Below, piece after piece: positions 48,794-62,745 of a stretch of DNA of 64,000 nucleotides. Source of the DNA: a virus. Positions within the stretch are counted from its first letter, which is position 1. Each line of letters starts with the position of its first letter. A program made the position numbers and the translations under genes. Location: IMG/VR virus record IMGVR_UViG_3300036832_000786, positions 48,651 to 112,650 of that record; one strand, 5' to 3'. The notes beneath the pieces were generated by a model. It did no database searches, had not been told where the DNA came from, and was given only the letters and a program-made list of their open reading frames with translations.

Positions 48794-50287
48794 ATGGCAC
48801 AAGGTTTGTCTGTCAGCCGCGTGGTTGATGTCCAAGTCAATTTCTCTCCGCAGGCGATCCCGACAGCGCGGTTTGACACCTTGCTGATCATGGGTGACAG
48901 CGGGGTTGTCGATACCGGCGAGGCGATCCGTGAGTACAACACGATCAATGACGTGGCGCAGGATTTTGGCACCACGGCACCGGAATACCTCGCGGCGTTG
49001 TTGTTCTTCTCGCAGGTACCGCAGCCGAGTACCTGTTACATCGGCGAGTGGGCGAACACTGCGACCCACGGTCGGCTGACCGGTGGGTTACTGACCAGCC
49101 AGCAAATGCTGATGAGTAACTGGACGACGATCACCAACGGCGGGTTCAGTGTCGCGATCGACGGTGCGGCGGCGGTCCAGGTTAGCAGTTTGAACTTCAG
49201 TTCTGCCAACAACCTGAACGGGGTTGCGACCACGATCCAGACCGCGCTGCGCACCGCTGCCAGTGCCCCACAACTGACCTTTACCTGGAACGGTAGCCAG
49301 TTTATTTGTCAGAGTGGAACTTCCGGTACAACGTCATCGGTGGCGTTCTTTGGCGTACCGACCGGTGGCGCTACCAATATCTCGGCGCAGTTGATGATGA
49401 CCAGCGCCACGGCGATCCGTAGTGTCTCCGGTATCGCGATTGAAACCCCGGTGGCGTCTATTGTGCGTGTCGATGGGCGCGGCTGGTATGCGGTGACCTT
49501 TGCCGCGTCGCGGGTACTGACCGATATCGAACATCTGGCGATCTCGGCCTATATCGAGGCAGCGTCCGACAAGCATATGTACGGGATCACCACCAACGAG
49601 CAAACCTGTCTCGACCCGGCGAATGTCACCGACATCGGGTCACAGGCGATGTTGGCCGACTACATGCGGACGGTGATCCAGTGGTCACTGTACAACCCCT
49701 ATGCCATTTGCTCGATCTTTGGCCGGGCTTTGACCGTGAACTTTGAGGGGTCCAATACGACCTTGACCCTGAAGTTCAAGGTGGAACCGGGTGTCATACC
49801 GGAAATCCTTTCCGGGTCAAACGCGACGACACTCGCGAGCAAGCGGATCAATGTCTACGTTCAATACAACAATGGCGCGGCGATCACCCAGGAAGGTGTC
49901 ATGTCGGGCCGGGCGTATTTTGATGAGATGCACGGACTCGACTGGTTGAGCAATCGTATCCAAAACGATCTGTTCAACGTGCTCTACACCAGCCCAAAAA
50001 TCCCGCAGACCAACCCCGGTGTGCATATTCTGGTGACAACTTGTGATGCGTCACTGTCACAGGGGGCGACAAACGGATTGATCGCGCCGGGAGTGTGGAA
50101 CGCGCCGGGTTTTGGTGAGCTTCATCAAGGCGATACCCTGCATAACGGCTGGTACACCTTCGCCAACAATGTTGACACTCAGTCACAGGCGGATCGTGAA
50201 GCGCGTATTGCACCACTGATTCAGATCGCTGCCAAGCTGGCTGGTGCCATCCATTTTGTCGACGTTTTGATCAACGTGAACAGGTGA
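48794..50287 (+). CDS. Tail sheath protein (DUF3383)
   Basis: 497 residues, SD TAGGAGGGAAC. LSVSRVVDVQVNFSPQAIPT, FDTLLIMGDSGVVDTGEAIR, PEYLAALLFFSQVPQPST, IEAASDKHMYGITTNEQT, NATTLASKRINVYVQYNNGA and IQNDLFNVLYTSPKIPQTNP are the conserved stretches of DUF3383, the sheath of one group of contractile-tail phages. It shows that this is a myovirus. The next gene is a homing endonuclease inserted before the tail tube region. Confidence 0.88.
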   Translation: MAQGLSVSRVVDVQVNFSPQAIPTARFDTLLIMGDSGVVDTGEAIREYNTINDVAQDFGTTAPEYLAALLFFSQVPQPSTCYIGEWANTATHGRLTGGLLTSQQMLMSNWTTITNGGFSVAIDGAAAVQVSSLNFSSANNLNGVATTIQTALRTAASAPQLTFTWNGSQFICQSGTSGTTSSVAFFGVPTGGATNISAQLMMTSATAIRSVSGIAIETPVASIVRVDGRGWYAVTFAASRVLTDIEHLAISAYIEAASDKHMYGITTNEQTCLDPANVTDIGSQAMLADYMRTVIQWSLYNPYAICSIFGRALTVNFEGSNTTLTLKFKVEPGVIPEILSGSNATTLASKRINVYVQYNNGAAITQEGVMSGRAYFDEMHGLDWLSNRIQNDLFNVLYTSPKIPQTNPGVHILVTTCDASLSQGATNGLIAPGVWNAPGFGELHQGDTLHNGWYTFANNVDTQSQADREARIAPLIQIAAKLAGAIHFVDVLINVNR

Positions 50288-50383: not shown

Positions 50384-51073
50384 ATGAGGCGACCCCGCGT
50401 GCTGATCGAGGGTGACTATTTTGTGTACGCACTTTTTAGACCGGATAACGGGGCCGTGTTTTACATCGGAGGCGCTAGTAGAGAGAAGCGCCTCCGTGAA
50501 CGAGGAACTAGAGGGCGAGGTAAGATGATCAGGGCTTTGGAACGGGCGGGTTATACGGAAATTCCATCTATCGTGATCCGGGCTGGGTTAACTCGTCTTG
50601 CGGCACAGGAATTAGAGAGTGCGTTTATACAGGCTATCGGATGCATGCCTGATGGTCCGTTAGTTAATAAATTTCGTATTGGGGTTATTATCGATGAAGA
50701 GGGTCGGCGTAATATGTCACTCGCTGCTAAGGCGCGGGATCGCTCCGGTGACGACGAGACGCGCCGTCGCGCGCGGATGGGTGACTCGGATGTTCGGGTT
50801 AGGATGAGCGACTCGGCAAGGAAGCGAGAACGGACAGTGGAGTTTGAAACGCGGCGGTTAGCGGCGGCTCATTCACCGGAGGCACGGAAAAAGCGTGGTG
50901 TCAGCCAAGCTAGGCGAGGTTGGATCACTAATGGGATTGAGGAAGTTCGCGCTCTGAAAACCGATCCGATCCCCAATGGCTGGCGGCGTGGTCGATTATC
51001 CGGTGTCGCCTCTGAAGCGACCCGCGAAAGGATGAGAGCTAGTAGACTTCGTTACATCAAAGAAGGTGTTTGA
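50384..51073 (+). CDS. GIY-YIG homing endonuclease
   Basis: 229 residues with GAGGAGGTGACAGGAGG upstream. FVYALFRPDNGAVFYIGGAS is the GIY-YIG signature; the following RGKMIRALERAGYTEIPSIV and AAQELESAFIQAIGC carry the conserved Arg and Glu positions. The middle is basic with NUMOD3-like segments (NMSLAAKARDRSGDDETRRR, RMSDSARKRERTVEF). The C-terminus RRGWITNGIEEVRALKTDPI with PNGWRRGRL is the DNA-binding tail typical of phage homing enzymes. It appears free-standing, between the sheath gene and a tRNA gene, and should be mobile by DNA cleavage and repair. Confidence 0.82.
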   Translation: MRRPRVLIEGDYFVYALFRPDNGAVFYIGGASREKRLRERGTRGRGKMIRALERAGYTEIPSIVIRAGLTRLAAQELESAFIQAIGCMPDGPLVNKFRIGVIIDEEGRRNMSLAAKARDRSGDDETRRRARMGDSDVRVRMSDSARKRERTVEFETRRLAAAHSPEARKKRGVSQARRGWITNGIEEVRALKTDPIPNGWRRGRLSGVASEATRERMRASRLRYIKEGV

Positions 51074-51090: not shown

Positions 51091-51166
51091 GGCGGGTGTA
51101 GCTCAGGGGTAGAGCGCTGGGTTGTGGTCCCGAAGGTCGCGGGTTCGAATCCCGTCACTCGCCCCA
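51091..51166 (+). tRNA. tRNA-His (anticodon GTG)
   Basis: Full cloverleaf: G-1 at 51091, acceptor GCGGGTG (51092-51098) pairing with CACTCGC (51156-51162, one G-T), D arm GCTC...GAGC, anticodon loop TTGTGGT with GTG, T arm CGGGTTCGAATCCCG, discriminator C and encoded CCA (51164-51166). The extra 5' G opposite C73 is the identity element of tRNA-His. One mismatch closes the anticodon stem (C-A). It is the only tRNA seen in the window. Confidence 0.95.
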
Positions 51167-52150: not shown

Positions 52151-52612
52151 ATGGAAGAACTAGAACTTGAAGGTACGTGGTACCGCACCGGTAAGCTTGA
52201 CGCATTTAAGCAGTTTCACTTATTCCGCAAGTTGATGCCACTCTTCAGCGGGATGGGTGAGACTGCGGCGTCACAACTCGCCGCCGCCGCGTCGAACACA
52301 AATGTACCGGAGGGCGCGGTTCGCTGGTCGTCATTTGGTCCGGTCGCCCAGGCGATCGCCGATATGTCACAACAGGACAGCGAGTTTATCGTCAAGACCT
52401 GTCTTGCGGTGTGTACGCGCAAGAACCCAGTGGGGCAGTGGGTGCGTCTAGCGACACCCCAAGGTGACCTGATGTTTGAGGACATCGACCTGGGTATCAT
52501 GCTGCAACTGTCATTTGCCGTGATACAGGACAATCTGGCACCTTTTTTTCCAGGCCGCCCCCTCAACGGTTCGGGAGCCGAGGTGGCCCAAACATCGAAT
52601 CCGCCGATATGA
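52151..52612 (+). CDS. Tail assembly chaperone, upstream part
   Basis: 153 residues from ATG 52151 (GAGGGTGACA upstream). ELEGTWYRTGKLDAFKQFHL, FRKLMPLFSGMGE, SEFIVKTCLAVCTRKNP and DIDLGIMLQLSFAVIQDNLA fit the small helical chaperones encoded between tube and tape measure. An in-frame slippery heptamer lies 14 codons before its stop, and the -1 frame is open into the next gene. As with lambda gpG/gpGT, it would coat the tape measure during tail assembly. Confidence 0.75.
   Translation: MEELELEGTWYRTGKLDAFKQFHLFRKLMPLFSGMGETAASQLAAAASNTNVPEGAVRWSSFGPVAQAIADMSQQDSEFIVKTCLAVCTRKNPVGQWVRLATPQGDLMFEDIDLGIMLQLSFAVIQDNLAPFFPGRPLNGSGAEVAQTSNPPI
52543..52549 (+). promoter_or_regulatory. Programmed -1 ribosomal frameshift site T TTT TTT
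   Basis: In the chaperone frame the codons read CCT TTT TTT CCA, so the heptamer T-TTT-TTT is in the correct register for a -1 slip. After the slip the frame has no stop between 52543 and ATG 52609 and continues to 52788. The product would fuse about 132 residues of the first protein to the 59-residue second part through a 20-residue linker. Confidence 0.75.
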
Positions 52613-52788
52613 CGGAGGGCGAGTACTGGTTAATGCGCCCAGTACTCGAAGGGATGTGTCAGTACGAATCACTGAAAAACGGCGCATTAGACCTTGCTGA
52701 CGTATCGCGGATGAACGAGGCAATCGACGTTCGTAACGAGAACCGTGCGCGTGCCGATGATGCAATGGCCGAGGAACGGAACCGATAG
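52609..52788 (+). CDS. Tail assembly chaperone, frameshifted extension
   Basis: The 59-codon frame (TEGEYWLMRPVLEGMCQYES, DLADVSRMNEAIDVRNENRA) begins in the ATGA overlap with the upstream part. It could also be translated alone from ATG 52609. Its position, -1 register and open connection to the slippery site make it the T domain of a G/GT-type pair, which recruits the tube subunits to the tape measure. The tape measure gene starts directly after its stop. Confidence 0.75.
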   Translation: MTEGEYWLMRPVLEGMCQYESLKNGALDLADVSRMNEAIDVRNENRARADDAMAEERNR

Positions 52789-58034: not shown

Positions 58035-58363
58035 TGACTACCATTTGGGAAATTCCGTTGACACCGCAGACGCAGCGTATGCGGATCGATATCAGTGGTA
58101 CCAATTACACGCTGCATTTTAAGTACAACAGTGTCTGCGATACTTGGGTTATGGATGTCAACGATACCGCCGACACACCGATCCTGGAAGGTATCCCGCT
58201 GGTCACCGGTACCGATTTGTTTGGTCAGTTCCGCTATCTGGGGATTGGTGGTGGGTTACCGATGATCGTGATGACGATCGGGCCGGGCCGGTCACCGGAT
58301 GATATACCGAATTACCAGAACTTGGGTATTGACGGTCATCTCTACTTCAAGACCCTGGTGTGA
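58034..58363 (+). CDS. Baseplate plug-like protein (Pam3 gp18-like)
   Basis: 109 residues, TAATG overlap. [59 protein letters not shown] and [20 protein letters not shown] match the small plug family of simple myovirus baseplates. It sits between the Dit-like and spike genes, as in related phages. Confidence 0.75.
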
Positions 58364-58365
58364 CG

Positions 58366-62745
<4,380 letters not shown>

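Follow-up and report, generated by a model that had tools for sequence, protein, structure and literature searches.

Evidence for a programmed −1 ribosomal frameshift that would join a DUF6889 domain to the tail assembly chaperone of a contractile-tailed phage

Sequence and conservation among relatives make it very probable that the tail assembly chaperone gene of this contractile-tailed phage is subject to programmed −1 ribosomal frameshifting of the kind known from lambda G/GT. The window, i.e. the whole 64-kb stretch of DNA analysed, is part of a virus record of 112,650 bases, and the features concerned are collected in Table 1. In the mechanism that we infer, the majority of ribosomes would read 52151–52612 and release a short chaperone, while a minority would slip back by one base on U_UUU_UUU as tRNA-Phe in both the P and the A site pairs anew with UUU. 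The slipped ribosomes would continue in the −1 frame as far as 52788, giving a predicted 212-aa fusion in which chaperone residues 1–133 are followed by the 79-aa, DUF6889-bearing extension. If the two products act as in lambda, the tape-measure protein would be coated by the short form, and tail tube subunits would be recruited by the less abundant long one.

Table 1. Features of the chaperone locus, in window coordinates
Feature	Coordinates	Strand	Basis or remark
Tail tube-like structural protein, KPP10_Orf10, PF11681	51653..52126	+	Pfam
Tail assembly chaperone, 0 frame, gpG-like, 153 aa	52151..52612	+	Phage_TAC_15 / PHROG 1688
AGGA (in CAGGAC), Shine-Dalgarno-like putative stimulator	52527..52530	+	12 nt before heptamer
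Slippery heptamer T_TTT_TTT	52543..52549	+	Register, conservation, codon constraint
−1 frame extension, 79 aa: linker SRPPPQRFGSRGG... and DUF6889 domain	52549..52788	+	Open frame, Pfam
DUF6889 ORF of 59 codons with own ATG (ATGA overlap); unlikely to be an independent gene	52609..52788	+	
Putative tape-measure protein, 983 aa	52789..55740	+	PHROG tape-measure and tail families, weak matches

The chaperone ORF starts at ATG 52151, ahead of which lies a good Shine-Dalgarno sequence (aaGGGAGGGtgacaATG), and stops at TGA 52610–52612. An earlier note on this DNA had named the product a tail assembly chaperone, an identity borne out by the match to Pfam PF21822 Phage_TAC_15 (83.7 bits, cut-off 22, E 2e-23), by the match to PHROG 1688, which is a tail assembly chaperone family, and by the position of the gene. 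Sheath (DUF3383) and tube (KPP10_Orf10) genes lie upstream, the former indicating a contractile tail; the putative tape-measure gene, a baseplate hub gene and a Dit-like gene lie downstream. The small ORF thus occupies a G/GT-type position, with the PF11681 tube gene on its 5′ side and the 983-codon putative tape-measure gene on its 3′ side. AlphaFold models were obtained with pLDDT values of 76.5 (chaperone) and 80.6 (second model). Structure searches of the PDB gave no match for the chaperone or the −1 extension, and for the chaperone model no solved chaperone fold (HK97 gp13 / lambda gpG-like) or other PDB entry was matched with E <1; the assignment therefore depends on the Pfam and PHROG matches and on gene order. 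Among tail-chaperone-like proteins, Bg_9562 is known as an antifungal (PMC9603447).

Several other features of the tail gene cluster were observed. The collagen-repeat tail protein encoded at 58360–62745 (1461 aa) matches the DUF3383 sheath family over residues 235–369 (E 2.5e-16), a domain it has in common with the product of the sheath gene at 48794–50287. Between the sheath and tube genes sits a 229-aa ORF (50384–51073) which by eye has the look of a GIY-YIG-type nuclease (YFVYALFRPDNGAVFYIGG) and for which Pfam and PDB searches returned no match. It is present with 99% identity in L003 and missing from the other close relatives whose sheath–tube gap was compared, and this patchy presence suggests that it is probably a mobile insertion. 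Directly after it, at 51092–51166, lies a tRNA-His gene (anticodon GTG), the sole tRNA of the window.

The heptamer at 52543–52549 is read as CCT TTT TTT CCA, so that T_TTT_TTT stands in exact register for a −1 slip. Starting at 52549, 79 codons can be read in the −1 frame, through the downstream 59-codon frame, before the stop at 52786–52788 is reached. Both observations agree with what the earlier note had stated. The window contains no second run of seven T, and the 15 CDSs examined have 5,696 codon boundaries, 13 of which carry an in-register XXXYYYZ of any kind. Within the extension, 39 residues make up the DUF6889 domain, which scores 57.6 bits against Pfam PF21829 (cut-off 23.9, E 1e-15) and also matches PHROG 4364, where a function is not assigned. 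When the window alone was subjected to synonymous shuffling, seven T appeared at the slip site in 3% of the shuffles and the overlap stayed open in 37%. The window-only evidence for a frameshift site is of moderate significance, unlike the conservation across relatives, which makes the slip site highly significant.

Relatives were gathered by chaperone sequence, together with annotated phages, and independently by searching genomic and viral contigs with a DUF6889 alignment. This yielded 168 loci with both chaperone and DUF6889 (phages, prophages and metagenomic viruses), which were grouped at 80% identity into 93 families. The DUF6889 frame is −1 relative to the chaperone in 167 of the loci, and in all 168 once the sole exception, L109, is resolved: it has an indel inside the chaperone gene, whose 3′ end is still −1 to DUF6889. 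An in-register XXXYYYZ lies near the chaperone end in nearly 90% of the loci (19 lack it). Counted by family, a listed slippery heptamer in register near the gene end was found in 79/93, compared with 5/93 for a control stretch of 30 codons upstream in the same gene (Fisher p ~6e-31); about 15% of the families have no perfect heptamer, and most of those are still U-rich at the site. The types are TTTTTTT (29 families), AAATTTT (14), TTTTTTG (11), TTTTTTC (8), CCCTTTT (6), CCCTTTC (4) and a few others. Codon usage is also constrained. Phe-Phe sites are spelled T_TTT_TTY in 37 of 38 families, while TTT makes up only 46% of the Phe codons of the same genes, and T is kept as the third base of an otherwise varied preceding codon (CCT, ACT, AAT, GGT, GCT, AGT, GAT). 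The uniform −1 relationship, the excess of heptamers over the control and the annotation of the product in two public genomes support the reading of the locus as a programmed −1 frameshift, which the earlier note had put forward.

Two loci, L060 (from the endosymbiont Candidatus Glomeribacter) and L132, keep the slippery site and have a −1 frame that closes before the 0-frame stop, which suggests decayed prophage copies. Closely similar viruses may also differ at the slip site itself, as do L014 (TTTTTTC) and L013/L015 (TTTTTTT), a natural variant pair useful for the study of shift efficiency.

It had also been proposed that the downstream frame, having its own start in an ATGA, might be expressed in both modes. 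The start is indeed present: ATG 52609 overlaps the 0-frame TGA as ATGA, an arrangement typical of coupled genes, and it is kept in 10 of the 11 closest sequences. The proposal of two modes fared less well, since no Shine-Dalgarno sequence precedes this ATG in the window or its clade, L010 has ACA in its place, and most relatives have no ATG there, other clades carrying Leu or other codons; independent initiation would thus be a minor extra at most. Taken to its limit, the argument from the ATGA would make the DUF6889 ORF a small gene of its own, expressed through termination-reinitiation, with the T run incidental. We consider this highly improbable. In L006 and L012 the 0-frame stop has moved while the ATG position has not. 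Furthermore, of 167 loci, 70 are devoid of ATG, GTG and TTG between slip site and DUF6889, and in another 49 the start codons there are all GTG or TTG, so that reinitiation cannot be the general mode. Nor would it account for a heptamer in register and for −1 coding ahead of the ATG. Over the latter half of the overlap, which lies before the ATG, sequences of the window's clade change most at −1-frame third positions (0.32, versus 0.13 and 0.18), as is expected only if −1 translation begins upstream of the ATG. Across the broad set, 38 independent pairs gave 93/57/94 substitutions at 0-frame positions 3/1/2 in the overlap, against 674/253/141 in the non-overlapping part (chi-square p ~1e-31), a departure from the pattern of a 0-frame gene that fits constraint in both frames and not clear dominance of either.

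A combination, in which the window's clade makes both the frameshift fusion and a free 59-residue DUF6889 fragment from the internal ATG, appears unlikely. Conservation of the ATG in this clade, as against Leu or other residues in other clades, would be in keeping with such a fragment, but the missing Shine-Dalgarno sequence and the ACA of L010 would not, and the Met may be merely a conserved residue of the fusion. If the combination were true, DUF6889 would serve tail assembly both as part of the fusion and as a free-standing factor. The homopolymeric nature of the window's site would also be compatible with RNA polymerase, and not the ribosome, changing frame by slipping on the run of seven T. 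Such a run is short for transcriptional slippage, however, and many relatives have non-homopolymer sites at the same place (AAATTTT, CCCTTTT, TTTTTTG, GGGAAAT); on these grounds, we judge polymerase slippage to be extremely unlikely.

Programmed ribosomal frameshifting being the preferred reading, elements that might stimulate it were sought on both sides of the heptamer. Upstream, CAGGA is invariant in the window's clade, and across families the Shine-Dalgarno core peaks at −16/−15 relative to the heptamer, with a spacer of ~12 nt; the 12 nt in the window fall within the 9–14 nt given for −1 stimulators in a review (PMC5009743). The motif could stem from a conserved Gln-Asp/Glu pair. The Gln codon in it, however, is CAG in 25/25 families, versus 216:88 (71%) elsewhere in the genes (p 0.0006, which is optimistic as the families are related), and this bias supports selection on the RNA. 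The element accompanies T-run sites (23/29 TTTTTTT, 6/8 TTTTTTC) and is rare elsewhere (2/14 AAATTTT, 2/11 TTTTTTG), an association that could be caused by shared ancestry. It is plausible that CAGGA acts as a Shine-Dalgarno-like frameshift stimulator. Downstream, folding of 63 and 123 nt gave no support for an RNA structure (z +0.28 and −1.16), and RNAalifold on 15 relatives found no pairs and no consensus structure. A 6-bp hairpin (GCUCCC/GGGAGC) 7 nt downstream was considered and rejected: one pair is compensated in L006, but in the window the hairpin is mismatched, and it does not exceed what shuffled sequences give.

The frameshift mechanism itself is textbook knowledge from lambda G/GT, a type in which the fusion is expected to be a minor product, needed for tail assembly and absent from the virion. 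In 2004, Xu, Hendrix and Duda reportedly described a frameshift that is conserved in the tail genes of dsDNA phages. Like lambda, the window has a short chaperone and a −1 extended, presumably minor form encoded between the tail tube and tape-measure genes; the arrangement of a G/GT pair before a tape-measure gene, recognized in the earlier note, was recovered here, with a tube gene upstream, the −1 ORF pair and a conserved in-register heptamer. Sequence similarity to lambda is neither detected nor expected, and the lambda slippery site is of the G_GGA_AAG type, whereas that of the window is U-rich and belongs to a contractile-tailed phage. The lambda system and its wide conservation have been reviewed (PMC5009743).

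Closer precedents come from the same family. A joined frameshift product is annotated in two public records, those of Klebsiella phage Mulock and Burkholderia phage Magia, and the Magia paper mentions it (PMC7883833). Both phages resemble the window in having a homologous chaperone (27–38% identity) with a DUF6889-like −1 extension before the tape-measure gene. They differ from it in their slippery sites (C_CCT_TTT in Magia, A_AAT_TTT / T_TTT_TTG in Mulock) and, unlike the window, have no ATG at the domain start. In the Vandenendeviridae / Andersonviridae, exemplified by Adele, the myovirus chaperone has a conserved −1 site in the T-rich motif GTTTTT, and the downstream ORF is usually misannotated as a separate gene (PMC12846349). 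Adele is thus similar in strategy, with GTTTTT where the window has the full T_TTT_TTT. Given the Mulock and Magia annotations and the lambda and Adele precedents, the mechanism proposed here is of a known type.

What the present analysis adds is modest: the recognition of DUF6889 as a frameshift-encoded part, a family-wide census and a plausible upstream stimulator. The comparisons make a strong case against DUF6889 (PHROG 4364) as a separate gene in these phages and for its being the C-terminal portion of the Phage_TAC_15 chaperone, reached by frameshifting. The extension is missed or called hypothetical in most phage records examined, and DUF6889 was not found by name in the literature searched. 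The family also provides a natural series of slippery sites at one homologous position (T_TTT_TTT, T_TTT_TTC, T_TTT_TTG, A_AAT_TTT, C_CCT_TTT). Together with an upstream element that is often present with T-run sites and rarely with others, this series could be of use in studying what determines the efficiency of the shift.
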